This document shows, one piece after another, positions 1 to 51,000 of a stretch of DNA of 64,000 bases; position 1 is the stretch's first letter; each line of letters starts with the position of its first letter. The notes beneath the pieces are model-generated. The model did not search any database and had not been told where the DNA came from. It worked only from the letters and a program-made list of their open reading frames with translations. The stretch covers positions 19,235,501-19,299,500 of the forward strand of contig OX344749.2 of NCBI GenBank assembly GCA_947034885.2. The letters are read 5' to 3'. The position numbers were made by a program, and so were the translations under genes. The DNA is from Thuidium tamariscinum (taxonomy: Eukaryota > Streptophyta > Bryopsida > Hypnales > Thuidiaceae).

Positions 1-231
1 CCAAGTTTTCATAGGGATAAAAAAAGGATTTTTGCCAATTCAAATGTTAATATCTTGCAATCTACACGGTGGAAATTTCTGAAATTTTTTCCATATCTTT
101 TCAAACCACCTTACTACAAGATCCTATAGTTACATGAGTCAATAAATGTTTTTTTTCTAAAAGTTTGCACTCCTATTAGAAATTGGAATTTTAGAGCATT
201 TTTGGTGAAAACCTTTATGGATTAAGGTAGC
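1..231 (-). mobile_element. TTAA-family element, reverse copy cut by window edge
   Basis: Bases 1-130 match, as reverse complement, the segment near 4010-4150: both carry a stretch reading roughly AATATCTTGCAATCTACAC, followed by an 'ACAAGATCCTATAGTTA' block. The copy runs toward its 5' end near 231, where a degenerate terminus (ACCTTTATGGATTAAGG) is recognisable. It has no coding capacity. The left part lies outside the window. Assignment to the family rests on shared internal blocks; the end itself is weak. Confidence 0.5.
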
Positions 232-539: not shown

Positions 540-792
540 GGGTACAAAATCTAGTCAAGCAAGGTGTAAAACAAGCTTGTTTTCTTCACTTTTAATGCAA
601 ATATCTTTCAATCTATACACAATCAAAGTTTTTGAAATTTCTTCTACACATTTTTACACTACTCTATTACAAGATCCTATAATTAGATATGCAAAAGAAA
701 AAAAACATTTTTTTAAAGTTTCTTATTCTTTGCAATGAAAATTGTAGTATTGAGTATTTTTTTGATGAAGAAAGGTCTTGGGACTTTAGGGG
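540..792 (-). mobile_element. TTAA-family element, partial reverse copy
   Basis: Bases 580-690 repeat the internal 'atatcttgcaatct ... acaagatcctata' blocks of the family, and the right end reads GGACTTTAGGGG followed by TTAA at 793-796, which is the inverted 5' terminus. The left limit is uncertain. The open frame at 364-738 crosses this copy and shows no domain; I treat it as chance. Confidence 0.5.
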
Positions 793-796
793 TTAA

Positions 797-3931: not shown

Positions 3932-4867
3932 TCTAAAGGTTTTTGACTATGTTTCTACCAAAATCACTACAAAACTGCGATTTCTAGTACAAGTGCAATT
4001 TTTTTGAATTTTTTTTTGACATATTTAACCGTAGGATCTTGTAGTTAGGTGGTTTGAAAAGATGTGGAAAAAAATTCAAAAACTTTCACCGTGTAGATTG
4101 CAAGATATTAACATTTGAACTAGCAAAAATCTTTTTTTTATCCCTACGAAAATTAGGGCAGCTGCACTTCACAAGGTCACAGTTGTATGAAAAAATACTC
4201 AAAATGATGGTTACTCTTTGAATTCATTTACAATTCAAGTTGGCTATATGGTCAAAAAAATTTAAATCATTTGGAATTGTACAACATATAGGAAAAAAAT
4301 AGTAAGTAGAAAGAAGTAGAAAATGCTTGAAAATACTAAATTGTGAACAATTTATTTATAAAAATGAAAAATGACAATCCCAATTGTTAAAATATTGTAA
4401 TAAAAAATCTTCACCCAATGTTTTAGTTTTTTTTCAAAAATATTAAAAATTGAATTAAATAAAGAATTTCGAACTTTTTTGTAGAGTAGAAATTCTATAA
4501 CTACCCACAAACTACTACAAATTGAGATTCCTTATAACTTTTGACTCATTTATTGAAATAGAATGATTCAAAGCTTTCCACATAGATAAAAATCTAATAA
4601 ACCAATTTCAAATTTTTATTTATTAAAAAAACAATTTTTAAAGAAGTTTTCTTTGCTGCCTATATTGCCCGCATTTTAAAGGAAACAACATATCATGCCA
4701 TAACTTTTAAACCATATAGTCAAAAGTTATGAAATTGTTGGGCCTTGAAGCTACTCCTCAAACACATGTTTTGTAAAAATTTCAAAGAAAAAAATAAAAA
4801 CTCCATTCATAGTGAGTTGCCTGAAATTTCTATGTTGCCAAAAAAACGTAGTTTAGGGCTTTAGGGG
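3932..4867 (+). mobile_element. TTAA-family element, copy A
   Basis: Non-coding element of about 0.94 kb. The left end is a degenerate version of the 5' terminus (CTAAAGGTTTTTGACTATG). The right end is well kept: GTTTAGGGCTTTAGGGG then TTAA at 4868-4871. Internal blocks (GTAGGATCTTGTAG, GTGTAGATTGCAAGATAT, 'cataacttttaaacc') recur in the other copies. It contains no transposase and so must be non-autonomous or a decayed remnant. It abuts copy B with a single shared TTAA. Confidence 0.6.
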
Positions 4868-4871
4868 TTAA

Positions 4872-6510
4872 ATCCCTTAAGTTTCTTGACTATATTTTCA
4901 CCAAAAACACTCCAAAATTGTCATTCCTAGTACAAATAACAAAATTTTGAAAAAAACCATTTTAGAACACATGTAATTGTAAAATCATGTCGTATGATGG
5001 TTCGAAAAGATGTAGAAAAAATTTCAAAAATTTATAATTCATGCATTGCAAAATATTAGCATTTGAATTGACAAAAATCATTTTTTGAGCCCTGTGAAAG
5101 AATGGGCAACTACACTTCATAGGGTGACATTTGCATGAAAAAATGTCCATTTTGGTGGTTCTTCTTTGTGAGGCATGCACTACTATTGCACTTATTGTGA
5201 AGTAAGGGCATATATTATTGTCAAAGATTCTCATTCTAGAAATAACTACCCCACATTTAGGTGGCATTAGGTTAGGGATTGGTATCACATTAAACTACCT
5301 TAGGTAATGGTAACTTTTCTAGTTAGAAGTTGTGCCAATTCCATAAATCTTGAATAAATAAAAAAGAGTGGTTCAAGTTTTTTGGGTTGCTTTACACCTA
5401 GAGGTTGGCCCAATTCTCTTCAAGGCTAATTGTATAGAATTCAATAGATCTAATTTGTTGAAAAAAACAATATATTTTATTTTTAAAAATCAATTGATAT
5501 TTGCCATTGGCCTTGAGATCAAGAATTGACCTCACATTTTTTAGGGCATCCAATGAATGATCTTGGGCCATATCACATCATGTTTTCCAGATAAAAAAAC
5601 CATTTCACTAAATTGGCTTGGCCTCTTTGTAGAAAGGGGTTGGCATTGATTTCATCCCATTGTCCATTCACAAATGAGGATTTTGGGCTGATTGGCTTGA
5701 CTCTTGATGTAAAGAAAGTAAGCAACCCTTATTTAACTTATTTGAGTAACTTATACCTTCTTGAAATTTTTGGGTAAAAAAACTTATCAAATGCAAGATC
5801 ATAATGCTTGAATTTCAAAATGGAGTATTTTCAACTCTTCCCAAATGGTAAAGTTTCATCTATATATCCAAAAATGTGTATGTCCTACAACTTGCAACTC
5901 TCTACAATATGTTGAAGAAATAAATTGGAAATACAAAAAATAAAAATTTATTCATATTTATACTTAACAAAAATTACAAATTTAAAGAGGCCAAATATGT
6001 TTTTTTAAATACTGAATCATCAAGACTTTAGTTATAGAATTGAACATCTCTCAATTCTAACAGTTGGAATGTGATATTGAATTAATCTTGTATTTTTATT
6101 TTTCCAAAAGTATTGTAAATGATTTGAAATATTGAAAATGAATTCAAAGTTTAGTTTTGAACAGAAGTACTATAACTTGCTTGCAAACTAAAACTCGTCA
6201 TACCTTTCATTTTTTTATTGAAATAAAATAACCCAAAGATTCTACACCTTTGTATAAATATAGAAAATCAAATTTAATTTTTTATTCCTCAAAAAGAGAT
6301 TTTTTCTAAGTTTCTTGGGATGCCAATAAATAAACTACACATTATACAACAATTTAAAACCAAGCAATCAAAAGTTATAAAAATTGTTACTTCTTAAAGC
6401 TATTTTTTGACCATATGTGTAAAATTTGAAAGAAAATAACAAAAATAATGTTTATAAATGGATGACCAGATTTTTATATTGCAAAAAAGTGCTATTTAGT
6501 CTTTTGGAGG
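4872..6510 (+). mobile_element. TTAA-family element, copy B (enlarged)
   Basis: Starts ATCCCTTAAGTTTCTTGAC directly after the TTAA at 4868-4871 and ends GTCTTTTGGAGG before TTAA at 6511-6514. The outer parts match copies A and E. About 0.7 kb in the middle (roughly 5170-5900) has no counterpart in those copies and looks like later inserted or expanded sequence. The antisense frame at 4962-5288 is a shadow with no known domain. Confidence 0.6.
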
Positions 6511-6623
6511 TTAAACCTTACATTAGAAGAGAAACAAGGCCATAATAAAGTTGCCTCCTTCATTCTATAATATATATATTCTTATGTTATCCATTTTATT
6601 TCCACTTTTCATAAATCATTGGT

Positions 6624-7514
6624 AACAAACTCTAAAGGCTTTGAGTGTTTTTGATTTTTGGAATTAGGAAGCATATTTTATACTATTAGAAGCTCATTGT
6701 GACAAACATTCAAATGGTATATTTTTTGCTAACATTTTTCAAACCCAAATTTCAATAGAATGTAGGGATGAGGAATATCTTTCATATGTACTAAAAATCA
6801 AGAAATTTGGAAATATGAATCAAAACTTATGGCCTAATATGTCACCTTTTTTTTGTAAATGGGCAATTTGGGTAGATTGGAAAAAATTGAATTTTTTCAA
6901 AAACAAAAATTTGAAATTGATTTTTTTCATTTATGAATGAGTCAAAAGCTTTGAATCATTTCATTTTGACCAATGAGTCAACTTTCAGTATTTTAAGAAA
7001 AAAAGAAGTCATAGGATGCAAATTGTCTATGACAACATTGCAACCATTGGGATTCACATTTTTAATTCCATAAATAAGTTCTTAACAATTTGATATGTTG
7101 AATCATATGCTACTTCTTTCAACTTTTTTTTCCCCATATATATTGTACAATTCCAAATATTTTGAATTTTCTAGGTAAGTATCCTACTTGGCCTCAACAA
7201 AGAATCCAGGAAGCTTTACTATTTTGGACCATTTTTCATATGATTGTATAATTGTATGATTGTCACCTTTTGAAGCACAAGTGTCATATTTTCCACAAGG
7301 TGAAATTTTTTTTTGAGTATTCAAATATCAATATCTTGCAATCTACTCAACAGAAAACTATGAAAGTTTTTCCACATATTTTCAAACCAGTTTGCAACAA
7401 GATCCTATGGTTATACATGTCAAAAAGTGTTTTTTAAAACACAATTGGTATTGGTACTAGAAATGGCAGTTTTTGAACATATTTGGAGTAAACATAGTCA
7501 AGGAACTTAATAGG
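6624..7514 (-). mobile_element. TTAA-family element, copy C (reverse)
   Basis: Reverse orientation. The right end, ACATAGTCAAGGAACTTAAT then AGG and TTAA (7515-7518), is the inverted 5' terminus. Bases 6740-6845 are the reverse complement of copy E around 13190-13290 ('ggcctaatatgtcacc' against 'taacatattaggccata'). The left terminus near 6624 (ACTCTAAAGGC) is degenerate. Non-coding. Confidence 0.6.
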
Positions 7515-7518
7515 TTAA

Positions 7519-8342
7519 ATTGAAGGGATAACACTAGCTTGCAATATGCATTGATTATAAGACCCTTTGTAATCAACCCTTTTTTTCCGGCACCATGGGG
7601 CCAAATTGCACCATTTCAAAATCAATGTCTTTTTTTTGCCAGATTAAAGTAATCTTTTTTCGCTAGAATTTTTCCGATTCTCTTTAAAATATCGATGAAG
7701 TCACCAAATTTGGATGAAAAAGTGTATGAATATGATGGAAAAGTATTTTCAAGTTCAAAAGACAAATAAATGTAGAAATACAATGCTTCACCAAATTGAA
7801 GTGATCGCCATCTTGGCACTTTTTCAAAAATTAAAAAAAAAAGGTTGTTTATAATAGACTTAGAAGGTTTTTAGTATTGACAATTTGTAAAATTAGTAGT
7901 CATAATTTATACCATTAAAAGAGGTTTTTGGAGAATGATATAAAGAATTTACATCTAATAATGACCTTTGTCTAAAACCAAATCCTATAAATTATTAATT
8001 AAGACATATTGTCTTTTTTAACAAAGCTAAGGATTACTTTTGAATGTAATATTTTTAAAATTCATGGAATGCCCCCAAACTGCATTAAATATATATATAT
8101 TTTGACTTTCAAACAGATCAAACCAAAAATAAAGCAATGTAAGATAATGATGGGATTATTACTCAATTGCAATTTCAATGCAATGCACAGTAGTATTATA
8201 TGATGGATCTGATGAATAATTGCTTCAACAATTTGCATTCAAATTTTCTATGTCAATATTTGTGCCTTGGCATCAACTACCATAGTAATGGCATGGCCAA
8301 TTCATCAAAACCATGTAAATCAGTGAGGAACCCAAATCATTT
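7519..8342. other. AT-rich spacer, nothing recognised
   Basis: AT-rich sequence with only short overlapping open frames (for example 7622-7819 on the minus strand and 8009-8203 on the plus strand). No repeat shared with the rest of the window was noticed, apart from a short (TA)n run near 8088-8100. Confidence 0.5.
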
Positions 8343-8346
8343 TTAA

Positions 8347-9070
8347 CTCCTAAATGCTTAAACTATATTTTTTTTCTTAGCAATATAGTGATTTTTGGCA
8401 ACTCACTACAAATGAAGTTTTGTTTATTTTTCTTTGAAATTTTCACATTACATTTATTCAAGGAGTAGCTTCAACCTCCAAGGCCCAACAATTTTTACAA
8501 TTTTTGATTACATGGTTCAAAAGTTTTTGTATGATATGTAGTTTTCAATGCTTGATAGGATAGAATAGGTACTGGGGTAGCTCAAATTTTCTTAAAAAAA
8601 AATAAACATTAGAATATTTTTTTTAGATTTATCTATATGTGGAAAGTTTTGAATTATTCAAATTTTTATAAGAGATGAAAATTATGAAGAATTTTACTTT
8701 GTGGGTAGTAATGAATTCTCTACTCTAAAATAAACTTTGAAGTCCTTTATTTGACTCAATTTTCAATATTTTTGAAAAAATAAATAAAACATTGGGTGTA
8801 GATTGTTAATGCAACATTGCAACTATTAGGATTGGCATTTTTCAATTCCATAAATAAATTGTTAACAATTTTGTATTTTGAATCATTCTTTACTTTTTTT
8901 ATTTACTATTTTTCCCTATATGTTGCACAACTCCAAATGATTTGAAAATTTTCAAGCATGTGACTAACATGCCTAGAATCATGAATCCAAAGAGTTATCA
9001 CCATTTTGGACATTTTTTCATACTAATGTGATCTTGTAAATTGTAGCTGCCTAGTTTTTTGCAAGGCCAA
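8347..9070 (-). mobile_element. TTAA-family element, copy D (reverse, incomplete)
   Basis: The left end follows TTAA at 8343-8346 and reads CTCCTAAATGCTTAAAC, the inverted 3' terminus. The next 500 bases are the reverse complement of copy A (for example 'ggcaactcactacaaatgaag' against copy A near 4800-4830). The match fades around 9050-9070 and no matching 5' terminus is seen, so this copy is probably truncated. Confidence 0.55.
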
Positions 9071-10337
9071 AAAGAATTTATGTGAAATCAAATGCTTAAT
9101 ATATCTAGCATGTTCCTATGTCAAAAACACTTCTCTTCAATCTTTGGTTGCAACATCATTTACATTGCTTGAGCTTTCAAGGATTGTAACATCAACTTCT
9201 AACTTTCTATAATTCTTTCAAAACAAATATCTTGTAACTTCTAATTGGATGACTACAAACATATCTAAGATTAAATAAAATCCTCTATTGTCAATTTCCA
9301 ACTTTATTTAGCTAGGCTTTACCACATGTACTAATGCATCATTGGATTTGGTTCATTGTCTAATACTAATTTTGCAATCAATAGGTGTAGTTATATTTGA
9401 AACAGTTATATGACCTTTCAAGCATCTTATCATATCTTAGAAGCAAGGGATTGCAATACATTAGACACTTTCAATTTTTATGGTTTAATCATTGTTTTTG
9501 TAGGGACTACCAATTTCAATTTAAGTACTCTTTTCACGGATTTTTGACTATAAAATCTAAGAAAAAGAAGAAAAATGAAAAAATGAAAATAATAAGACAA
9601 ACTTCTCTCTTCCATTCTATTAAGAAAAAGTGTTCTTTGTTGTGGACAAATTTTCTTTCTACAATGATAATTACTAGAATACTAAATGCATGAACTTCTT
9701 ATAACTAGGACACCTATTAGGCTATCATATTCATTGCTATATTATACATGAGATTTCATCTGCCATTAGAACATATTGGTATATGGTTATGAAATTAATT
9801 TTTTATTAGGAGGTCAAGATCAATTAGCCAATTGAATAAGTAGAGGTTTATCAAATTAATTTAGAATTAGAGGTCAAATCAAATTAAGATAGGGTTATGA
9901 AATTAATGAAGGATTAGGAAGTCAAAATCAATAAGCAAGTCAAATTAGTAGAGGATTAATGAAGGATTATTGAACTAGGATAGGATCATTGCATCAAGTT
10001 GAAATTAGAAAGCCAAATCCAAGTAGCAATCGGGATTAGGTTAGGTTCCCCCAATTCAAGCCATATTAGCAAATCAAATTCATTCAACAAAACCAAAGTA
10101 GGTAGAAAATATCCATTGCTTGGAATGCACAATGGATTGATGCTTAAACATCCATAGGATTTAGAAATACATAGAATCCGATTGTGTTCATTTCATTTCA
10201 AAAGTGGAAATCAAGCACCCACAGTGATTAGTCTTGCCAAGAAGTTAGATTTTTGTACTTTACCTTGTAAAGAGGTAAGGGTATGGGTGGCATTTATACC
10301 ATATGGTGTGGAGCCTTGGGACCCTTTTGCTTGATAC
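9071..10337. other. AT-rich spacer with a degenerate tandem stretch
   Basis: No gene seen. Around 9790-10050 a degenerate repeat with words such as 'aggtcaaatcaaattaa' and 'gaaattaatgaaggattag' recurs four or five times at about 50-60 bp spacing. The plus-strand frame at 9397-9693 is Lys/Phe/Ser-rich and has no recognisable domain. Confidence 0.5.
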
Positions 10338-10341
10338 TTAA

Positions 10342-11194
10342 CCCTCAAACGCATACGCATCCAAAAAGTGGATGCACCTTGGTCAACCTTGATTCTAACT
10401 TTAAATATAACCATTTTTGGAATTTGACTTTCATTGAGAAAATGTAGCTTGACAAGTTTTCTTTCAATTTCAACTTGAAATTTTGAAAAAATTCAGAAAT
10501 TGAAAAAGTTATTGCAATTGCAAGCTCTATGTGTCAAAATCCAAAAAATACAATTTGTTCTGTTTTTCATTCATATATTTCAAAAAAAAAGTATTTTCAT
10601 CTTAAATTACAAAATTAGGTTTTCCATTCTTATCTTCATTAATGGTAAAATTTTTAGATTATTCTAATATATATTCTAATTGATATAATTATTTTTTATT
10701 CTTAACTTTAAAAAATAACAATAATTTGTAGTTTTCATTAAAAAATTAGAAAGAATTAGAGTGATTAGGAAGTTCAATTTTCTATTCGTAAAAAATATCA
10801 AATTTTTATACCTCTATTAAATAAAGTATGACATTTGGTTTAATAGGCAAATATTACTTCAAGATCTTTGTTGTGGTTGTTTGGGGTTTTAAAAATACAA
10901 TAATCAATTGAAAATTTTGTACACTAATACCCATTTCTATTTGTATCTCTTGAGAAAATTTCAAATAATTTGGATCATTTTTGCTATTTTTACTTATTTA
11001 TTTCTAGTTTTTGCAACAAAAATGATAACAATTACAATTTTTTACAAAATCAATTGAAATTTCTCTTTATATTATATAATTCATAATTTGAAGGAATAAA
11101 AATATAAGATCAATATTTGAAGGCAATCTAACATGCTAAATTAACCTTGGACATGATGTTTGACCAAATGGCAATGGATCTTGTCCTTTAAGGG
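10342..11194. mobile_element. Candidate TTAA-flanked element (853 bp)
   Basis: Flanked by TTAA at 10338-10341 and 11195-11198. The left end reads CCCTCAAACGC; the right end reads CTTTAAGGG, so the ends are inverted for about 8 bases with a mismatch. Inside each end lies a similar phrase ('ttggtcaacc' on the left, 'tttgaccaaatgg' on the right, inverted). The interior is AT-rich and non-coding and is not obviously related to the other copies, so this could be a distant relative or chance. Confidence 0.4.
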
Positions 11195-11198
11195 TTAA

Positions 11199-12446
11199 AG
11201 GCTGGGATTTCTTCCTTGAAGGCACCTTTTTATTTATATTCTTGAGTTTGGACAATATACACTTAAATTTTCTTTTACTTTAATATGTTTTTGTTGTTGT
11301 TGTAAGTAGAGTTGTATTTCTTTTTGCTAGTGAGGGTCATTCTCTTGGAATTTGAAAGGGTGGTTCTTTGGGTGTAGGAGGCAAACTTAAAGTGACTTCG
11401 AGTGCTACTATTTTTGTCAAGTTTGAAGGTTGAGGTTGTGGGTTGAGGTTACAATACTTCTTGTTGGGATTTTAGTTCTTTTTTGGAATTGTAATTACTT
11501 TAGGTGCAGAATTTAGGTGTTTGGTCTTTTTCATTTCTTTTCAACTCACATACATCAACTACAACTATGAGCCCTATGATTTTTTGGATAGACTAATTTG
11601 AAATCACTCTCATAAGTTATATTTTTCAAATTTTTTTTTGGATTTCCCAAAAAACAAGCTTGTTTATAACTTTTACATCACTAATCCAAATGAAATGAAT
11701 CAAAACTTTCTACGTAGGTAAAAATACAATCTATGTGTGAGTACTTTAATAATTCACCCTTGGTATTAAACAAGCACAATTAAGTTTTGTGTCAAATGTA
11801 AAAATTTATTCCAAATGGGTGCCTAGGCATGATTTGTTGTGCCTTACAAACAATGAATATTTCTATTTGCCTATTGGATATGAATTGCAAAATAAACCAA
11901 ATAAATCTTAAAACAAAACCAATTTTTGGTCAAACAACTGAACTAATCAAAGCTACTAGTTTTTTCTAAAGAAAATAAATGCATAGTCACAAAACATGAA
12001 TCCTATTGTTCTTTTTTGAAAAAAAATTCATAATCACAAAATATGAATCCTATAATAGACATCAGATCATGTCGATCATGAAAATATTAAAAAAAAGTTC
12101 AAATTTGATGTTTCTAGAGAAAGTTATGACTAGATGAAGTTTAGCCTTCGGAGGAGCAATTCAAACTTCATCCTCCATGCCCTAATGATTTCCAAACTCA
12201 ATTTGACTTAGGATTTTGGCTATAAATTTGGTGTAATATCTATCTATTGTCTAATTTATGAATTCTGTATGGGATGGATAAAAAAATTCTAAATTCATCC
12301 AACATCTATTCTAAACTTCATCCTTAAATTTTTTATGGAGTTCACCTAGCTTAATATTTTACTTATAAACTAGTTTTGGACTATTCTAACCTTCTATAAA
12401 TTTCTAAGCTGATGTTCTTACTTGGTTGTTTTCAAAAGATTCTAAT
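11199..12446. other. AT-rich spacer, nothing recognised
   Basis: About 1.25 kb with no open frame of note. There is a G/T-richer patch at 11290-11500 ('ggttgaggttgtgggttgaggtt'). No repeat or RNA gene was identified. Confidence 0.5.
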
Positions 12447-12450
12447 TTAA

Positions 12451-13362
12451 CCCCTTAAGTTCCTTGACTATGTTTATTCCAAAAGTCGTCAAAAACTACC
12501 ATTTCTAGTACAATACCAAATTTTCTTAGAAAACATTTTTTGAGATTTGTTACCATAGGATGTTGTAGTAAATTGGTTTGTGAACATGTGGAAATATTTT
12601 TAGAGTTTTTCACCTTTTAGAATTTTAGATTGCAAGATATCAATATTTGAATGCTCAAAACAAGTTTTTTTCACCCTACAGAAAATATGGCAATAGCTCT
12701 TCAACATGCGACAATCATATGAAAAATGGTGCAAAATTGTTGTGCTTCTTTGGATTCATTATTAGGGTACTTGCCTAAAAATTTCAAATTATTTGGAATT
12801 GTACAACATATAGGAAAAAAATAGTAAGTAGAAGGAAGTAACAAATAATTCAAAATACAAAATTGTTAATAATTTCTTTAAAAATTTGAAAAAGCCAATC
12901 TCAATGGTTTCTATATTTTAATAAATAATTGACATCCTACGATTTTTTTTTTTGAAAATATTGAAAATAGAGTCAAATATAAGACTTGAAAGTTTATTTT
13001 AGAGTAGAGAATCCATAATTGCCCGCAAACAAAAACTCCTCATAACTTTTGACTCATTGATCAAAATGAAATTATTCAAAGCTTTTCACACAAACATAAA
13101 TGAAGAAAGTCAATTTCAAATTTTAGTTTTTGAATTTTTTTTTTTTCAATTTGCCCAAACTACCTAATTATGAAAAAAAGTAACATATTAGGCCATAACT
13201 TTTGACTTGTATTTCCAAATGTCCTAAATTTTAGTGCATTTGAAAGATATCCCTCCTCCCATGTTCAATTAAAATTTGGGCCTCAAATATAGAAATCTCC
13301 ACTCACATGTACCTACCCAAAATTGCTATGCTACTAAATTTAGCATATTGGTCCTTTAGAGG
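12451..13362 (+). mobile_element. TTAA-family element, copy E (best full-length copy)
   Basis: 912 bp flanked by TTAA at 12447-12450 and 13363-13366. The left end is CCCCTTAAGTTCCTTGACTA; the right end reads GTCCTTTAGAGG, so the outer bases form a short inverted repeat (CCCCTTAAG against CCTCTAAAG). Internal blocks match copies A, B, C and D over most of the length. There is no coding capacity. The TTAA flanks and C-rich ends recall piggyBac-type elements, but no transposase is present to test that. Confidence 0.65.
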
Positions 13363-13366
13363 TTAA

Positions 13367-14203: not shown

Positions 14204-16954
14204 CACTACTAGAATTGGAGGGTATAAATGACCCCAAAGTATAATTGCAGGAGAGTGATTTGGACAAAAATGACTTGTAAGTGATTCAAGCCCTGAAGTC
14301 ATTGTAGACAAGTCATTCTTTAAATGACTCCAATCTTATTATCACCAACTACTTTAGACTTGGATGAAAGAGTCTACGTGGCATATGAATTTCTAAAGGA
14401 AATTTTGTGAAAAGTTTGGATTGCTACCTTTTTTGAGTATAATTTTTTTGATGACCCCCCCATGTCACCTAATTTTGCATTCATTTCAAAGTTGCAGGGT
14501 AGTTGACCAAGGTTGACAAGGCTATCCATGCCATAGTCATTTGGCAATTGCATAGCAGTTGCAATAGTGTCAGTGAGTAGTTTTACTAGTCTAACATGTA
14601 AGTGCATTTATAGTCATTTTGAAGTCACTCTGTAGTTGAGATACTATTAGTAAGCAATTAGATTAGTCTAAAATGTAAGTACATTTATAGAGTCATTTTG
14701 AAGTCACTTTGTAGTTACCATATTGTTAGGAGCAAGTTGACCAATACATGTAAAATTGTAAATGCATTTAAAGAGTTATTTTTCAGTGACAATGGAGTCT
14801 TTGCATTCTGTAGATGGATTGACATGTGGCAAGTCATTTTATAGTCATTCTAAAGTAATATGGATTTAGGGTAACGACAATTGTAAAGGAAGTAGTCATT
14901 CTATAGTTACATATAAGTACATTCAAAGTGTCATAGTGATTTACCATATGCAATATGCCATATACAATAAATCATATGCTATACATAATTATACATCATA
15001 TACAATCTGCCTTACATAATTAAACACCCTAGACAATATACCATATACAATATACTATATATCATACATCATATTTGACACATGTGTCACATGGATTTCA
15101 AAAGCACTTAGTGTATGAGTATCAAGAGATGAAATGAGAAGCTCTTTATAGGAGTGGGATATTGTAGAAGGCAAGACAAACTATGTGGGATATGTAAAAT
15201 GCAAGAATTATATTATAATTAAAATTCTAAACCGAATTAATGCATAGTAGATTAACTTTTTGCAAAAAACTTTAAACTAATGAAAGTTGGTAAATCAATC
15301 TCACTTTCATTTCCAAAAATTCATTTTAGATTTCAAGCCTTTAATCAAAAGCTATAACTAAATTTGCTAAAAGGTTTAAAAAGGATTGGTATAGAAAGAA
15401 TACAACGATCATCTATAGTTGACTTCCTCCAAATAAGGATATATATAGTTGTGTTGAGTCTCCTCACTTCATGCAAGAAAAGTGCAACAATTGATGTATA
15501 AAATGTTTGCAAATAGCACAATGAATCATCATGCACAACATGCCAAAGTAGTAATAGAGGAGTTGTGCAATAGTTTGAAACTTTTGAGTAGTCATTTAGT
15601 AGTCACAAGAAGTCATTCTTTAATGAAACTAGAGTAGCAATGTTGTCATTTGCATAAGGGAGAAATGGGACTTAACAATTGTCATTAGGTTGAGTATTAG
15701 GTCCATTTGAATACTTTAGTGTAAGTTTATTTGGACCCTTAGCAATTCAAATGTGAATCAAATGAAGTGTTCAAAAGTAGTGCAATGATAATGGTGCAAA
15801 TTTTTAGAATTCATCATTGACATACCAATAGGAATTTAAATAAATCATACAAATGAACCCTAAGGAAAAAAATAATATACATCAACAAAGAAAATCCCAC
15901 TAGTAATGCATCAATTTTTAAAAAAGACAAAAGAAGTATTCTATTAATAAATTTTTTTTTTTAAATTGAAAAAGATAAACAAAGAGTAGAGAAATTAGAA
16001 AGAGCTTATTAACTCAAGAAGGATATTAGAGTATGAGTGTTAGAAAATCCTAAATTGCATGTGCTATGTAGTTGCCAACTAGAAGGCTATTAGCTAGAGT
16101 GAATGCAATAGAATTGTACTTTGCATGTGATGTTTTAGTCATCCAACATCTTCTAATTTGGCACACTCATGAACTAATTTTTTGCCAAGCATATCTAATG
16201 TGAATTTTGTTGTTTAAAACTATATTGAAAGTGCTTCAGCAATTTAGAAAATAGTTGCATAGTAGTTGTTGAGGTGAGAAGATGATCCCCCCAAGTCACA
16301 ATTGGTCAATTAGCAATTTCAATGAAGAGGCAACTCTTTGAAGTCATTTTAGATCCGCTTGTGAGGTCCCATTGCTTTGTATCATTTTCTTAAATTGTAG
16401 CAGTCACAATTTGATTACCTTATAGTGACTGAACTCCATGTTAATAAAAAGCCTAACTGATCCAAATTCTAAAACTTACTTTCCAAACAAAAAAGATGTT
16501 GAAGTCATGTTGAAGTCATTTTGAAGTTATCCCATAGTAATGTGCAGTCGCATCCTAGTAACAGTAGCACAATCGTTGTTCACATTAACATGCTGCTTTG
16601 CCCATCCTCTCAAAACAAATTGCAATGGTGCCACCTAAAGACCTTGAAGTCATATCTGAGTTGCAAAATAGTAAAGATTAGTCACAATCAATAATTGTCT
16701 CACAACTAGGATGTCCAAGAAGGTTCTCCCCCATTCCTTGCACTTCAATTTCAATGAATGTCCATTGTGACTATCCCCCTCAATGAGCTCTTCATCCTTG
16801 AGTCACAAAAAATGACTAGAAAATGACTCTAAAATACTATAGAATGAATTTTGATGCAACTATAGAAGTATCAGTCATTTTTTAGTCAAACCGGACAATC
16901 AATTATATATCAGTCATTCGCTGCAATCATATATACCCCCTAATTCTAGTAGTG
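14204..16954. mobile_element. Non-autonomous CACTA-type DNA transposon (2.75 kb)
   Basis: Terminal inverted repeats start CACTACTAGAATTGGAGGG on the left and CACTACTAGAATTAGGGGG when the right end is read inverted, with about 25 of 28 outer bases matching. Subterminal zones are packed with AGTCATT/AATGACT words in both orientations, about twenty across the element (for example 'agtcattttgaagtcac'). In CACTA (En/Spm) elements such short subterminal repeats bind the transposase. No transposase reading frame is present; the small frames at 14374-14607 and 15345-15536 have no domain. A 3-bp target duplication is not clear (TTT before, TCA after), perhaps because another CACTA element lies one base beyond the right end. 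Confidence 0.75.
14945..15075. repeat. Simple CATATACAAT-type repeat
   Basis: An imperfect tandem of roughly 10-bp words (catatacaat, catatgcaat, catacatcat) inside the CACTA-type element. It looks like slippage-derived low-complexity sequence. Confidence 0.6.
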
Positions 16955-24882: not shown

Positions 24883-24886
24883 TTAA

Positions 24887-25720
24887 CCCCTAAAAGCCCA
24901 GGGGGTTAGGACAAAACACAAATGTGTTATAAAATATAAGCATTACAACTTTTTTGAAGTTAGTATCAAAGAAGATAATGTAAAGCACAAAAAGTAGAAA
25001 GTATCCATATGATCAAAATTAAAAAAATATGTATAGATTCTCTTCAAATGAATTTTGAAGATATAACTTCAAAAATTCACCAAAAATACAATTTCTATTT
25101 TTAGGATTTGAAATTTTTTTTGATTGGTCAAAATTGTGTTTTTTATTGATTTATAAAAAAATGCAAAATATTCAACCTCTAAAAGCCCAAGGGATTAAGA
25201 CAAAATACAAATGTGTTATAAAATATAAGCTTTACAACTTTTTTGAAGTTAGCATCACAGAAGATAATGTAAAGCACAAAAAGTAGAAAGTATCCATATG
25301 ATCAAAATTAAAAAAATATTTATAGATTCTCTTCAAATGAATTTTGAAGATATAACTTCAAAAATTCACCAAAAATACAATTTCTATTTTTAGGATTTGA
25401 AATTTTTTTTGATTGGACAAAATTGTATTTTTTATTGATTTTAAAAAAAATAAAAAATATTTATTAATGAGAGCATCAATACTTCCTCAAAATAGTAAGT
25501 TTTTCAACACTAAGCAATTTTAGACACTTTGTACTATTTCTCCTTTTTTTTGCTATAACTTTTGTTTGACCGTATAGATCTTAGTTTTGAATGCAAATGT
25601 TGAAACACAATCCAATATTTTGAAATTTTGAAAAAAAAAAAATTGAATTTTTTTTTTTGCCCAAAAATGCTGCCCAAAGTTGGGCAGCAATCATAAAATG
25701 GTCGTTTGAGCACTTAGGGG
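24887..25720. mobile_element. TTAA-flanked element, copy F, with internal tandem duplication
   Basis: Flanked by TTAA at 24883-24886 and 25721-25724. The left end is CCCCTAAAAGCCCAGGGGG; the right end reads GAGCACTTAGGGG, so the outer CCCCTAA is inverted at the other end. The first part is duplicated in tandem: two units with a 289-bp period (about 24887-25175 and 25176-25464) differ at only a few positions. The second unit even begins with a terminus-like CCTCTAAAAGCCCAAGGG. Non-coding; the antisense frame 25581-25826 has no domain. It lies within the span of the copia fossil. Confidence 0.7.
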
Positions 25721-25724
25721 TTAA

Positions 25725-41226: not shown

Positions 41227-43010
41227 GAGCAAAAACAAGCGCCTTTCAAGCCAAGGAAACTAAAGGCAGACCAAGTCATTAGTAGGCCAAAGAGTGAAAG
41301 GCGAGGAGATTTTCAAAGGTCTGCTCTAGATTCTTCTATAGTGGAGAACTTCAATAAGCCAAAAGGTATACTGACTTCTTCTACACTGAAAGACAAGAAA
41401 AGTTTGAAGAAAAATGACAATTGGAGTGATGGTCAATTGAAGGCCGCCTTGAGCGCAGTAGACAAAGGAGAAAAATCAAACTTAGTAGCTGATTATTATA
41501 ACATTCCTAGATCTACATTAAGAGGGCATGTACGTGGTAGAATTTTATCAAGGAAAAGAGGTCCTAATATTGTACTCACTACTGTTGACAAAGAAGAACT
41601 TGTCAAATATTTGTTAGACATGGCAGAGAGAAGATTTCCCTTGACTTGGATGAGACTCAGAATTCATGTATCCATAATGATACAACATCAAAAATACCAT
41701 TTAGAGAAGGCATCCCAAGCAATGGATGGGTTAGATGGTTTTAAAAGAGGCATCCACAGATTTCATTGAGAAAGACCCAGATACTAGAGGTCGCTAGAGC
41801 AACAAGGTTATGTCCAGAACTAGTTGCTACTTTCTACAAGAACTTAGAGGTGTTCTATGAAGAGAAGCAATACGCCCCAAGCCACATTTGGAACGCAGAT
41901 GAAAGTGAAGCTCAAGCAGGAAGAAGTGGAGGAGCTAAAGTTTTAGTCAAGACTGGTTTCAATAATGTACATATCATTGTACCAAATAAAAGAGAGCATC
42001 TCATAGCTCTTTCATACACAAATGCAGCAGGAGATGCCATACCTAATTACTATGTCTTCGAAGGGAAGCAATATCAAAGGAAACACATAGCTAAATGTGA
42101 AGAAGGAGCTCAAATGGGAATGCAAGAGAATGCTTGGATGACAAGGTTCCTATTTGATAAGTGGTTGGATCATTTCATCGAAATTTTAAAAAGACATGGA
42201 GGTGTATCTCCGTCTAATCGTCATCTATTCATTGTTGATGGACACAACTCTCATGTGACCTTGGATGTCATAGAAAAATGTCAAAGTATTAGTATAGATC
42301 TACCGATCCTTCCATCTCACAATCTCACACCTCCCATGAATTACAACCCTTGGATGTGAGTTGCTTCAGTAGTTTCAAATTAGCTTTTCGAATCTATCGA
42401 GTTATTTGGTGTAAGCACAACAAAGGTATTAAAGTGAACAAAACCATCTTGACCGAATGGGTTTGCAAAGGTTTACAGCGAGCTCTCAATCCATCCAACA
42501 TTTAAAGCAAGTTCAGAGCTACAGGGATTTTTCCTTTCAACCCTCACGCAATGGATAAAAAATACGAACCATCCAAACTACTTGTCGAACAGGTTGTAGA
42601 GGAGGTTCAAGTTGATGGTTATGAAGAATTGAAGAAGGAGGTTTTGACAGAACCAGAGCCAGAATTGAAGGCACTTGAACATGTAGATTACGAGGATACA
42701 TCATCTACTGACCATGTGACAGGGATTGACCAAAACGATGGACAGTCCAACCAACAACACAACCCTAGTGATATGCTTGCTTGTAAGAGTTTGAAGGATT
42801 CTTCTAGGTTGCTCCACATTCAACCATACATAGACTACTCGAAGTCTCTCTTACTGACAAACAGTAGCCACATCCAAAAGCTTAAGGATTTACAAGAAAA
42901 AAGGAAGGTTACAACTGAAGAACAAGAACGCGGAAGATTGGAGAGTGAAGCTAAAAAAAAAAAAAAAACTCTGAAGAGAAAGAGGGCTGCTGATTAGAAA
43001 GAGAAACTGG
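41227..43010 (+). pseudogene. Pogo/CENP-B-like (Tc1/mariner superfamily) transposase, broken
   Basis: Encodes a DDE transposase of the pogo branch in three frames. The first part holds a psq-type helix-turn-helix (NWSDGQLKAALSAVDKGEKS, then 'ADYYNIPRSTLRGHV', near 41425-41540). The second part (to about 42340) holds the first acidic residue in 'IWNADES' and the second in 'FIVDGHNSHV'. The third acidic residue ('HELQPLDVS') lies at 42335-42361 in yet another frame, followed by 'GIFPFNPHAMDKKYEPS' and a Lys/Arg-rich tail to 42997. There are at least two frame changes (about 41640-41705 and about 42330) plus in-frame stops, including one near 42502. No ATG precedes the helix-turn-helix. The family length is about 450-600 residues, so most of the protein is represented. 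It cuts and pastes DNA at TA sites in related elements. Terminal inverted repeats were not found. Confidence 0.85.
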
Positions 43011-43102: not shown

Positions 43103-43685
43103 ATGACTGCTAAAGCTGTGATGGTGAGCGCTTTGGACACCCACGTGAATAAAGATGAAGAAACAGAGATTGATGAAGTTTTTGCCATGATGGATGAGCC
43201 TATAGTTCAAAAAGGTGAAAATACAAATCTTTGTATTATAGAAGAAAGACTAGAGAGGGTGGCCAATTCAAAGATGAAGGCCAATACTTATAATGTGAAG
43301 ATTCAAGCATTAGAGGAGGAAGATTCAAAGGTTGAGACTCAAACTTTTGAATGTGCCTATGATCATGATGTGAAGGGAAAGCATGATGAGAAGGATGAAT
43401 TTCACCTTCCATTTTGGACTAGAGCCACTACTGAGACCAGAGTGAAGCTTGAAGGATTAGATGAGACTGTGCTTGCTCTTGTTGATCATGGCTTTGAGAT
43501 CAACATCATTTCTAGAGATGTATATGAGAAGGGCAAGTGGCCAATTGATACCGAGAATGGTTGGATCATGAGAGCAACCAATAGTGGGCGTACTCGATTG
43601 CATGGAGCTTATCCATCTCTTTCCACAAAGATTGGAGATGTATATGTTGAACAAAACTTTTTTGTTCAAAATTCCAGTACATATC
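43103..43685 (+). mobile_element. Ty3/gypsy fossil, part 1: protease region
   Basis: Contains a retropepsin-like stretch ('ETVLALVDHG…INIISRDVYEKGKWPID') preceded by an acidic linker typical of the gag-pol boundary. No gag is recognised upstream, so the 5' end is missing or displaced. The region is interrupted by the LTR inserted at 43686. The last five bases (ATATC, 43681-43685) are one copy of the target duplication. Confidence 0.75.
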
Positions 43686-45424
43686 TGTGAGCGCTCCTAA
43701 CTCTACCCTCGAGCTAAGAGTTTTTCACACGGGTCTTGTGTCTAATTGAGTTTTCTTTTTAATTGGGTATTAAAAGAAAGCCTTCCAAGCAATGAATTCT
43801 TTTAGTCACGTCTTTTAAGTGTTTCTAATTTAATTTCGTGGTTATAATTCTATCTATTCTATTCTAAAATTCAACCAAGCGATCCTACTCTATTCTATTC
43901 TATCAAATGATATTGCCTAAATCTAATTCCAAGCATTTGGTAAAAAGAAACTTAACAGTAAAACAATGAGAATGAAAATCAAATGTGAGCGGTTTACCTC
44001 CTTTGCGTAAATCTCCATAGTCCCGTCGTCAAACATTATCATGTGTAAATATTCTCCCACAACCTCGCCATCGAAATCATCCCGACTCTCCATCTAATCT
44101 ATAATAATTCTCACGTTGTTGGTCAATTAATTCTGTCTTGATTAAAAAGAAATTAAAGGTTATGTAACGTTAATTCAATTGCGTAATTATTTTAATTCCT
44201 AAATTCCCGATAATTGGGAAATACTGCAATTAAATTAGTCTACCTAGTTTGTTAATGTTCTATTCTAAAGAAATCAACGGAAATCTAATAGTTAACTATT
44301 TGTTGTTTTTAGCTTTTATTTTAGTTCTCAATTGATATTATAAAATTCCAACGAATTCCAATTGAATTAAATTAATTTGGATGGAAATTTCCATCAAATC
44401 TTTTCAAATCTAATTAAATTTTGGATTTGTTTTAATTCTAAGAAATTGGTTGTCAATTTGTTTGTTTCTTTTTTGGCTTATTAGAATATTTTAATAAAAA
44501 ACTATCATAAAATCTTTTCAAATCTAATTAATTTTTGAATTTGCGTTAATTCTAAATAAATTGGTTGTCAATTTGTTTGTTTCTTTTTTGGCTTATTAGG
44601 CCTAATAAAACAAAACCAACAAAATCCAAGCCGTCTAAGAATCTAAGTAATAACTAACTACCAAAGAATGTAGAACATACCCCAAGAATAAAAGCCAATT
44701 CAATAGTGAGATTCCGAAACAATTAGTTTTTAATTGCCAAAGGTCAAACATAAAGAATATAGTACCTTATTCAATAGTGAGATTCTTTTAAGCAATGATT
44801 TTTTAATGCTAAATTCCCTCACGTGGTTGTCTCTCCCGTAATCCTTCTTCCCTTAATTCCTTTCTTCTTTTTCAATCTTGCACTTAGTTTTTTGCAATGG
44901 TTAGTGAAGAAGTTGGCTATGGAGTCTTGAGTGAATGGAGCTTCTAGGATGGAGTATCAAAGTTGCAAAGATTGGATTTTTAATGTAAAATCAAAAGTGG
45001 TAGAGGAGGTTTAATTCCGCATCTTTTGATTTTTAATTAAAACCCAATTTTTGTAATATCACTTTTCCAACCTAATTTGGTGTGAGGAGCACTTACTTGC
45101 TTTGTTGTGTGTGTGTGTGTTGGCTTTGGTTTGTTTGTTTTTTTGGGTTGTCTTTTTTTTCTTCAGTTGGAACCAGTCCCTGGACCTGGCCTCGCTTCTC
45201 CATGTCTGGCCTCCGCCCTCCCGACTCTGGCCTCCGCTCACCCGGCCCACGTGGCACTCTCCCGTTGGCCAGACCCCGCCTTGTCACCCGGCTACGTGGT
45301 AGCTCCTGATTGGGTCTCGGGGGGAGGCTGCCGTTGCCTGTCCTCTGGCTTGCTCCGCTCCCGGTCTGGTTTGACTCCACCGGTTCGGCCTCCTGGAATT
45401 TGAATTCTGAAATTTTGAACACTA

Positions 45425-48006: not shown

Positions 48007-51000
48007 CCGTGCTTTTGGGCCAACCATTCATCACTGCTTCATGTATGGAGACTAAAGTGTTGGATGATGGATCACACTATGCTCGAATTCAAAGCATTGA
48101 TGGAAAGAAGTCAGTACAGTTTTTGACTGTAAGAGCCAATAATGAAAGACATCGGCTTCAACTTAGGGAGACTCTTCTTTCTACTTTTATCAACTTTTCA
48201 AATTTCTAGAAGGCACAAGTGGAGTGAGGGGATCCGCTAGTGCCAAGAAATTCGAAGGTGTTAAAGTCCCGAATGTACATATCAATGTTGGGTGTGGATT
48301 TTTGAGTGTGACTAGAGATGAAGTTATTAGTTTTACAAGTGTTCAAGACTTGGAACCTGTATATAAAAGATTTGTGAGAAAAATGGAGAAAGACCTAAAA
48401 AGAGTGAAGGTTTTAGAAGAAAATGAAGCCATCTCAAGAGTTTACGAGGAGAATGGTATACTTGATAACTTTTTGCAAATTTTGCAAGAAGTGAAGGCAA
48501 AAGAAGAAGCTTGTATGGCCAATTCTTATGTAATGAACATTCATTCAGCTTCATTGCATCATGAGATTTTAATAGCAGTTACAGAGCTGTATGATTCAAC
48601 TATAGATGGGCATAGACTGGAAGCTGTAGTACATACTAAATACAAGACTGTGGCCAAGAAAGTGAAGCCCATGGCTACTCAGCTACCATCTGACACTAAT
48701 GAACATATCAAGCAAGCTGAGAAAGAGCCAAGTTTGAGGGAGACAAGAAAGATTGGACATAAGTTTACTAAAGAGAGTTTGGGAAGCTTGAAGATTGGAA
48801 GAGATGAATTCTTGACTGAGCCAGAGAAGAAGAAATTTCAAGACATGTTTGTTTTGCATGGAAAGACCTTTGTTTCTTCGCCAGATGAAATTGGATGTGT
48901 GCAACCAAGTGTTGTGACACCTATGGTGATTTTCACGGTGCCTCACATACCGTGGGATTTGAAGCCCATACCTGTGCCTAGAGCTATACTTCCAAAACTT
49001 GTGGAGTTGCTCAAAGAGAAGGTCAAAATGGGCATACTTGAGCCATCAATGGCTCCTTACTCAAACCGATGGTTCACCGTTCCAAAGAAATCAGGAGCAT
49101 TGAGATTTATTTAAGACATGCAGCCTGCTAATAGGATGATTATTAGGAACAAAGGATCCGGTCCAATCGTTGATGAAGTGGCTGAAGCATTTGCTGGACA
49201 TGCAATTTATTCCATTGGAGATCTATATTCTGGTTATGATTAATTTCAATTGGTTGCTGAAAGCAGAGATTTGACAATCATGAAGACTCCACTTGGTTTA
49301 GTACGCATGTGTACGTTGCCTCAAGGTGCCACCAATTTGGTGGTACATATGCAAAGCGCCATGAATCAAATCCTTCGAGATTTTGTGTCTGAGAAGACCA
49401 TACCTTTTGTAGATGATATTCCTATGAAAGGATGTGAGGGAAAAAAAAAGGACTTGACAATTCAAGATGATGGGTGTAAAGTTTTTGTGAACGATCATAT
49501 CAAAGATGTAGCCAAAATTTTGAGTAGACTTGAAGAAGTGAATTTGACTCTTTCCATTGAAAAGTCAAAGTTTGGGGTTGATGAGATTTTGGTTGTTGGA
49601 CATTTGTGTGGTTCCTATGGAAGAAAACCCAATCCTGAAAAAGTTGATGCTATTGGAAGGATGAAGGCCTATAGCAATGTCACTGAAGTAAGGAGGTTTT
49701 GGAGAGCCTGTATCTTCTATCAAATTTGGATCCCTCATTTTGCTCATGTATCAGAGCCATTGTACAAACTTTTGCGTAAGAAAAACAAATTTCTTTGGCA
49801 AAATGAACAGAGCTTGGCTACGGAGGAGTTGAAAGAGATTTTGAAATCACCACCGATTCTTAAACAAGTGAGCTACGATTGTGGAAGATTGGTGATAGTG
49901 ACTGTTGATACAAGTCCAATTGCTATTGGATGGGCTATTGAACAAGATGATGAGGCAGGAAAGAGGTTTGCTATCCGATTTGGAGCAAAGATCTTAATTG
50001 AGCGGTAGAGAGCATACCCACAAGTTAAGAGAGAACTTTGGGGAGTACTCACAGCTCTCAAAGCAGACAGAAACTAGCTAATTGGAGCAGAAGTGGTAGT
50101 AGAGACTCATTGTTTACCTTTGCTGGGGATGATAGCAAATTGTAATTCCCCAAATATTGCTATGCTACGATGGATTGTTTACATCAAGTCTTTGAACCCT
50201 GTTCTAATTCACATTGAAGGCAAAAAGAATTGTATTACTGATATGTTGTCTAGAGCAAGGTATTTCTATGAAGATGAGATGATGGCTGAAGAATCTAGTG
50301 AAGAACTATCTTATGGGAGCTATGTGATGACAACAAATGGAGAGAGTTCATCCACAAGAGCTTTGCCTTTCAAAGCAAATTTGTATGAAGAAAAGTTTAA
50401 AGACATTGAACTCTATTTGAGTACCATGGAAAGGCAAGAAGGTTGGATGGACAAGACTTTCAAAGACATTAGACATCAGTCTTATGGTTTCCTATTGAAA
50501 GATGGTTTTCTATAGAAGAGGACAAAAAGAACTGGTAAAATGCCATTGAGAGTGGTAGGAGACTCTGAGACCAAAGGCCAAGTCTTAAGGGAGTTTCACG
50601 ATACACATTGGGCTGGTCATAGGGGAGTTTGGGCCACGTATACAAAGATTAAGGAAAGGTATTGGTGAAAAGGACTCTACAAAGATGTTGAAGAGTTTGT
50701 AGCATCTTGTGTAGTGTACCAATTGCAATCTAAAATGCGACACAAAGATGAATTGCATCCTACCTACCCTATTGCTATCCATTTCCAATGGATGATTGAT
50801 TTGGTCGCTATGCCAAATACTATGAGGGGAATGAAGTACCTTGTTTTGGCCCGAGAAGAGCTTTCAAACTTTGTTGAAGGAAGGGCTTTAAGGACCAAGG
50901 CAACGGAAAATATATGCTGGTTTATTCTTGAAGACATTTTTAGCCGGTATGGAAGCATTGGCCGCATGAGAGCTGATAGAGGAGAATTGAATGCCACTGA

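Follow-up and report, generated by a model that had tools for sequence, protein, structure and literature searches.

The repeats in a 64,000-bp window of a 363 Mb plant genome of 19 contigs (the window is the whole stretch C1:19235501-19299500) almost certainly form a high-copy, non-autonomous family of the piggyBac superfamily, of the kind known as miniature inverted-repeat transposable elements (MITEs) that derive from larger elements by deletion. piggyBac is a jumping gene that is most familiar from insects. The initial annotation of the window had suggested a piggyBac-type or new TTAA-specific family, and this suggestion is supported by a 4-bp target duplication, by the element ends, and by transposase-bearing relatives elsewhere in the genome with homologous subterminal DNA.

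A gene-less family with more than 1,000 copies

The consensus built from genomic copies, a step that the initial annotation had recommended, is 953 bp long and describes a gene-less element of about 950 bp, to which individual copies are 91.0-95.3% identical (mean 93.5%, n=27). A 469-base query from a window copy returned 6,873 first-look candidates genome-wide; among the 40 that were scored, other genomic copies are 91-94% identical to the window copy at 3932. The exact 22-base 5′ end, TTAACCCCTAAAGGTTTTTGAC, occurs 1,082 times in the genome and 0 times in the reversed control. Well-kept 5′ ends read TTAA-CCCCTAAAGGTTTTTGACTATG and well-kept 3′ ends CTTTAGGGG-TTAA, and the TTAA-flanked end sequences quoted earlier proved correct when ends were read from copies. 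Each end carries CCCCTAAAG, giving short terminal inverted repeats that start with CCC.

A profile hidden Markov model (HMM) of the family was made from the same 27 genomic copies, among them the window copy at 3932, whose match is therefore by construction. Reversed sequences served as the control for HMM and end searches, and the family HMM found no match at E<1 in the reversed window or sequences. The profile locates the following copies in the window:

3932-4871, forward strand: best-kept copy, non-autonomous; HMM positions 7-952, E 0 (3932-4870); left TTAA lost (CACA), right TTAA at 4868-4871
4868-6517, forward strand: longer relative; 5′ part of the MITE at 4871-5168 (E 8e-52) and 3′ part at 5984-6513 (E 7.6e-32), with other DNA between
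6624-7521, reverse strand: decayed copy; HMM matches at 7517-6978 (E 9.1e-69) and 6981-6799 (E 1.5e-14); 5′ end at 7517, opposite end decayed
8344-9111, reverse strand: one-ended copy; HMM positions 178-952, E 2.2e-124; 3′ end kept (TTAA-CTCCTAAATG), the 5′ 177 positions missing
12447-13366, forward strand: complete, diverged copy; HMM positions 2-952 (12448-13365), E 1.2e-122; TTAA on both sides
1-222, reverse strand: partial copy of the 5′ part, clipped by the window start; HMM positions 4-237, E 2.9e-50; absent from the initial annotation
563-796, reverse strand: partial copy, 5′ end with TTAA; HMM positions 2-224 (795-563), E 6.8e-15; also absent from the initial annotation

The right TTAA of the copy at 3932 (4868-4871) doubles as the left TTAA of the adjoining longer relative, whose right end reads GGAGG-TTAA. 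Six related copies, one of them as a more distant relative, had been listed at the outset as sharing internal blocks; the HMM bears out five of them, and the sixth, at 24887, is alike at its ends only and gives no HMM match.

The target duplication is 4 bp long

Insertion of the short family duplicates 4 bp of target, usually TTAA and now and then TTAT, ATAA or TTAG. The flank table covers 28 copies with readable 5′ ends, 27 of which are two-ended (L002 is left out of the two-ended table). TTAA stands on the left in 21 of these 27, and the right flank then reads TTAA in 20 of the 21 and TCAA in the other. The six other flank pairs are CACA/TTAA, ATAA/TGAA, TTAG/TTAG, TTTA/TTAA, TTCA/TTAA and ACAG/TTAA. 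Outside the four flanking bases, the sequence varies from copy to copy.

An empty site, sought on the initial annotation's advice as a way of fixing the duplicated bases, lies within the window:

14259-14369, reverse strand: paralogous empty site of the copy L003; the same flanks with one TTAA and no element (80% identity over 112 bp, E 8.5e-23)

This single TTAA was rejected as proof of a TTAA duplication, since a TA duplication around an element with ACCCC...GGGGT ends yields an identical joined sequence. Because the empty site is ambiguous between TTAA and TA, insertions at variant targets were relied on instead, and it is these that fix the length. Two exact-pattern searches at the left end supplied them, with 34 matches for TTAB and 32 for VTAA; one row (L082) shares its locus and 3′ end with another (L081) and was left out, giving 65 rows. 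A 3′ end is readable in 46 of the 65, and the other 19 were left out of the counts.

Among the 46 readable rows, the left flank is repeated on the right as TTAT/TTAT in 11 of 14 cases, as TTAG/TTAG in 2 of 7 and as ATAA/ATAA in 3 of 11. The TTAT match compares with 0 of 53 elsewhere (Fisher p 2.8e-10) and the ATAA match with 0 of 46 elsewhere (Fisher p 0.0056). No matches occur among left TTAC (0/4), GTAA (0/7, two of them with ATAA on the right) or CTAA (0/3) in the same rows, and unmatched variant flanks are read as point mutations on one side. TTAT/TTAT excludes a TA duplication and one phase of a 3-bp duplication, while ATAA/ATAA excludes TA and the other 3-bp phase; the duplication is therefore 4 bp.

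Matched non-TTAA insertions include 13 of the form TTAT/TTAT or TTAG/TTAG and 3 of the form ATAA/ATAA (p 0.021), so that the odd base lies more often beside the 5′ end. Variant totals are 18 TTAT and 13 ATAA at the left end and 20 and 8 at the right end, where the pattern also picks up elements that bear this sequence at each of their ends. An orientation preference at non-canonical targets is possible; the insertions are few, and it is not taken as established.

At three loci the end AGGGCTTTAGGGG faces outward on both sides, 0.9-3.6 kb apart (C7:5822261-5823211, C9:17569609-17570562 and C1:21442546-21446128). Their flanks match as TTAT, TTAG and ATAA, as judged by coordinates. These pairs are likely to be related elements that carry the same sequence at both ends.

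Full-length relatives encode piggyBac transposases

Of 659 candidates in the genome, the 116 loci that were scored exceed the cut-off for the piggyBac transposase domain PF13843 (DDE_Tnp_1_7), and 74 of these rows have no internal stop. Element A (C7:1354927-1360069) is 5,143 bp long, starts with TTAA-CCCCTAAATGCCC, ends with GGGAACTTAGGGG-TTAA and has an open reading frame (ORF) of 613 aa, counted from the first methionine, that matches PF13843 with E 1.1e-79. Against PDB, its product matches the Trichoplusia ni piggyBac transposase (6x67, E 8.9e-33) and piggyBat (9c0f, E 2.1e-22). The aspartates of the TIDE, DN and GVD..DQ motifs are kept in the alignment with T. ni piggyBac; we take them to be the catalytic residues, numbered 268, 346, 447 and 450. 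Cysteines at its C-terminus are spaced C..C...C...C and align only weakly with piggyBat (second domain, -5.0 bits), so that a cysteine-rich zinc domain there is no more than possible. Two further copies of A are 98% (L032) and 96% (L033) identical to it over about 4.26 kb; L032 has TTAA at both ends, and L033 was read at one end.

Used as a query, the transposase of element A retrieves a broad range of relatives, with identities from 100% down to 41% at 87 loci scored of 849 candidates. Element B (C7:17555611-17562063; 6,453 bp) has CCCCTAAAGGCCCAAG ends and is flanked by TTAA on either side; two stops break its transposase, which shares 74% identity with that of A. CCCCTAA stands at the ends of both A and B. 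The check for an autonomous copy with a transposase, which the initial annotation had advised, turned up PF13843-bearing elements with CCCCTAA ends, TTAA flanks and DNA homologous to the short family next to the ends. When IMG/VR viral contigs were scanned with the transposase of element A, no relative emerged; two pattern matches arose, neither of them confirmed, and the patterns suit close relatives and do not exclude distant viral ones.

Homology between the short family and elements A and B

The family HMM matches element B at both ends, with positions 2-215 at E 7.8e-16 and positions 737-953, which reach the final TTAA, at E 5.6e-9. Positions 33-195, the 5′ subterminal region, match the 3′ end of element A (E 4.5e-11). 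The reversed control of this search gave no match at E<1. The partial window copy at 563-796 also aligns over 204 columns (68%) with the end of element B. One block, TTTAACCGTAGGATCTTGTAGTT, lies about 100 bp from the end and is the same in the family consensus and in element A; element B nearly keeps it. It is a candidate subterminal binding site. In the gene-less locus L042, two stretches of an A-like element (1-261 and 4362-5032, 70% identity) are retained and the middle is gone, the shape expected of a deletion derivative.

In the proposed mechanism, a full-length relative would supply the piggyBac transposase, which would bind the CCCCTAA ends and the subterminal DNA common to relative and short family. 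The short element would then be cut out and reinserted at TTAA, or occasionally at TTAT, ATAA or TTAG, with duplication of the 4 bp. A member of the A/B lineage probably moved the short family, presumably by cut and paste.

Alternative explanations

A TA-targeting MITE of the Tc1/mariner type with ACCCC...GGGGT ends and a preference for TTAA targets, which the initial annotation had named as its main alternative, would likewise leave TTAA on both sides and a single TTAA at an empty site. Under that model the element would include the base beside the 5′ CCCC, the outer right base would come from the target, and the two should vary independently; they vary jointly (TTAT/TTAT, TTAG/TTAG), as do the outer left and inner right bases in ATAA/ATAA. 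Full-length elements with the same ends, moreover, encode piggyBac transposases. The matched 4-bp variants lead us to reject this model, whose remaining probability is minimal. A Tourist-like MITE of the PIF/Harbinger type, duplicating 3 bp (TTA or TAA), is just as improbable. TTAT/TTAT by itself would suit a 3-bp TAT duplication around an element ending in T, but ATAA/ATAA (3/11 against 0/46) misfits that phase and TTAT/TTAT misfits the other, so that 4 bp alone suits both; here too the relatives with matching ends bear PF13843 transposases. Slightly less remote, though still very unlikely, is a mover from another superfamily that duplicates TTAA (Sola3, for example), with the piggyBac-like ends a product of convergence. 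TTAA duplication and C-rich ends are not unique to piggyBac. Homology to A and B, however, runs about 160-215 bp inward, at both ends for B and with a clean control, which exceeds what convergence of ends would give, and the full-length relatives found carry PF13843.

Several observations weigh against assignment of the short family to piggyBac deletion derivatives. The closest full-length elements are only about 70-75% identical to it at their ends, and among the part of the 659 candidates covered, no full-length element has ends that reach the level of similarity seen among the MITE copies (93.5% mean to consensus), so that the exact source may be extinct. Full-length elements with this type of end were read at both ends in just three cases, two of A and one of B, and the transposase of B contains stops. 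The HMM matches to A and B fall in AT-rich subterminal DNA and carry bias terms of 12-20 bits, with the reversed control clean. Of the variant rows, 19 of 65 lack a readable 3′ end, and the joined flanks of three loci (L049, L052 and L063) align across the junction but are diverged, with no clean TTAA.

A third piggyBac family with near-identical copies

Nine copies of a third piggyBac family (L020-L028) all start at TTAACCCTGAAACGCCGGGC. Eight of them are 99.93-100% identical to the ninth (L021) over about 3,984 bp, and their nine left flanks are all different. Such near-identity at differing flanks means that this young family has moved recently, present-day activity being a separate matter. 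The copy with both ends read (C1:16226788-16231883) is 5,096 bp long with TTAA at both ends and has one ORF of 1,009 aa with the piggyBac domain at its end; a 273-aa ORF in another frame, overlapping the start of the transposase ORF, has no Pfam match. One of the nine (L022) is inserted exactly at the TTAA bordering an older short-family copy on its 3′ side.

Comparison with known piggyBac systems

The moss elements, as the host most likely is a moss (see below), share with T. ni piggyBac and with piggyBat of Myotis lucifugus the 4-bp TTAA duplication, C-rich ends and a transposase of the same family whose aspartates are kept in the alignment. Unlike T. ni piggyBac, they live in a plant, and their full-length forms measure 5.1-6.5 kb against 2,472 bp (PMC10140906). 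The window family further differs from both animal elements in being gene-less and present in more than 1,000 copies. It resembles insect MITEs of the piggyBac type, and the angiosperm ones on record, in its lack of genes, its TTAA flanks and its CCC ends, and differs from them in having transposase-bearing full-length relatives in the same plant genome and documented matched duplications of TTAT, ATAA and TTAG.

The initial annotation had called piggyBac elements rare or little described in plants; this agrees with their description as occasional (PMC12732532) and sits less well with the listing of PiggyBac as one of seven angiosperm MITE superfamilies (PMC10004981), among other such lists. 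The repeat table of the fern Ceratopteris richardii, also a land plant, records 1,230 PiggyBac copies covering 122,417 bp (PMC6890710); that entry is a row of an annotation table, and the accompanying passage does not give ends, duplications or a transposase. CCCT is reported as the commonest piggyBac end in beetles (PMC12732532). Genomes of animals are engineered seamlessly with piggyBac, and so are those of plants, into which it is brought from animals (PMC12732532 and others). PMC8086355, PMC10794571 and PMC5505980 were also drawn on, while the two piggyBac matches in PMC10619864 include 'expression piggybacking' and show nothing on the transposon. The open-licence literature searched, as far as its available text goes, yielded no description of piggyBac elements in mosses, though such descriptions may still exist.

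The host genome and other features of the window

Loss of the plastid gene rpoA to the nucleus is a moss trait. The bacterial-type RNA polymerase alpha domain PF01000 occurs above the cut-off on nuclear contig C2 and below it on C5, and it was not found on C19 (115,000 bp), the contig that carries rbcL between a presumed atpB-like frame on the reverse strand and a presumed accD-like frame; C19 is possibly incomplete, which would weaken the point. On this nuclear placement, a moss is the most likely host. One nuclear chromosome has a broken rbcL-like copy (C1:38347545-38348475) that is probably plastid DNA transferred to the nucleus.

Besides the short family, the window holds a separate element with similar ends:

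24883-25724, forward strand: gene-less element with piggyBac-type ends, TTAA-CCCCTAAAAGCCC ... GCACTTAGGGG-TTAA, the ends being CCCCTAA

The first 289 bp of this element form a tandem duplication whose two units are about 95% identical. The family HMM does not match it and its interior has no homology to the short family, so it was rejected as a member, the likeness being confined to the ends. Elsewhere, judged by eye, a 197-aa ORF at 41766-42359 resembles a piece of a different kind of DDE transposase, and ORFs at 43103-43690 and 48224-50008 resemble gag-pol pieces of a long terminal repeat retrotransposon.

Biological meaning

We class these elements as new families within a superfamily already known, in a host that is unusual for it. 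What stands out is that in a plant they are abundant, diverse and recently moved, and that TTAT, ATAA and TTAG sites are used naturally. A broader reading, offered tentatively and at somewhat less than an even chance, is that they make up a native, plant-adapted piggyBac system in a land plant lineage, likely moss, not characterised as such before: large and still mobile, with several divergent transposase families, near-identical full-length copies with a 1,009-aa ORF, and gene-less passengers that accept TTAT, ATAA and TTAG with an orientation bias.

The recently moved full-length families and the more than 1,000 copies of a gene-less derivative show that piggyBac elements are able to flourish in land plants. 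They offer plant-adapted transposases, and their insertions form an extensive natural record of which targets are chosen, tolerated non-TTAA sites among them. They also raise the question of whether moss piggyBac elements were kept from an early ancestor or arrived by horizontal transfer.

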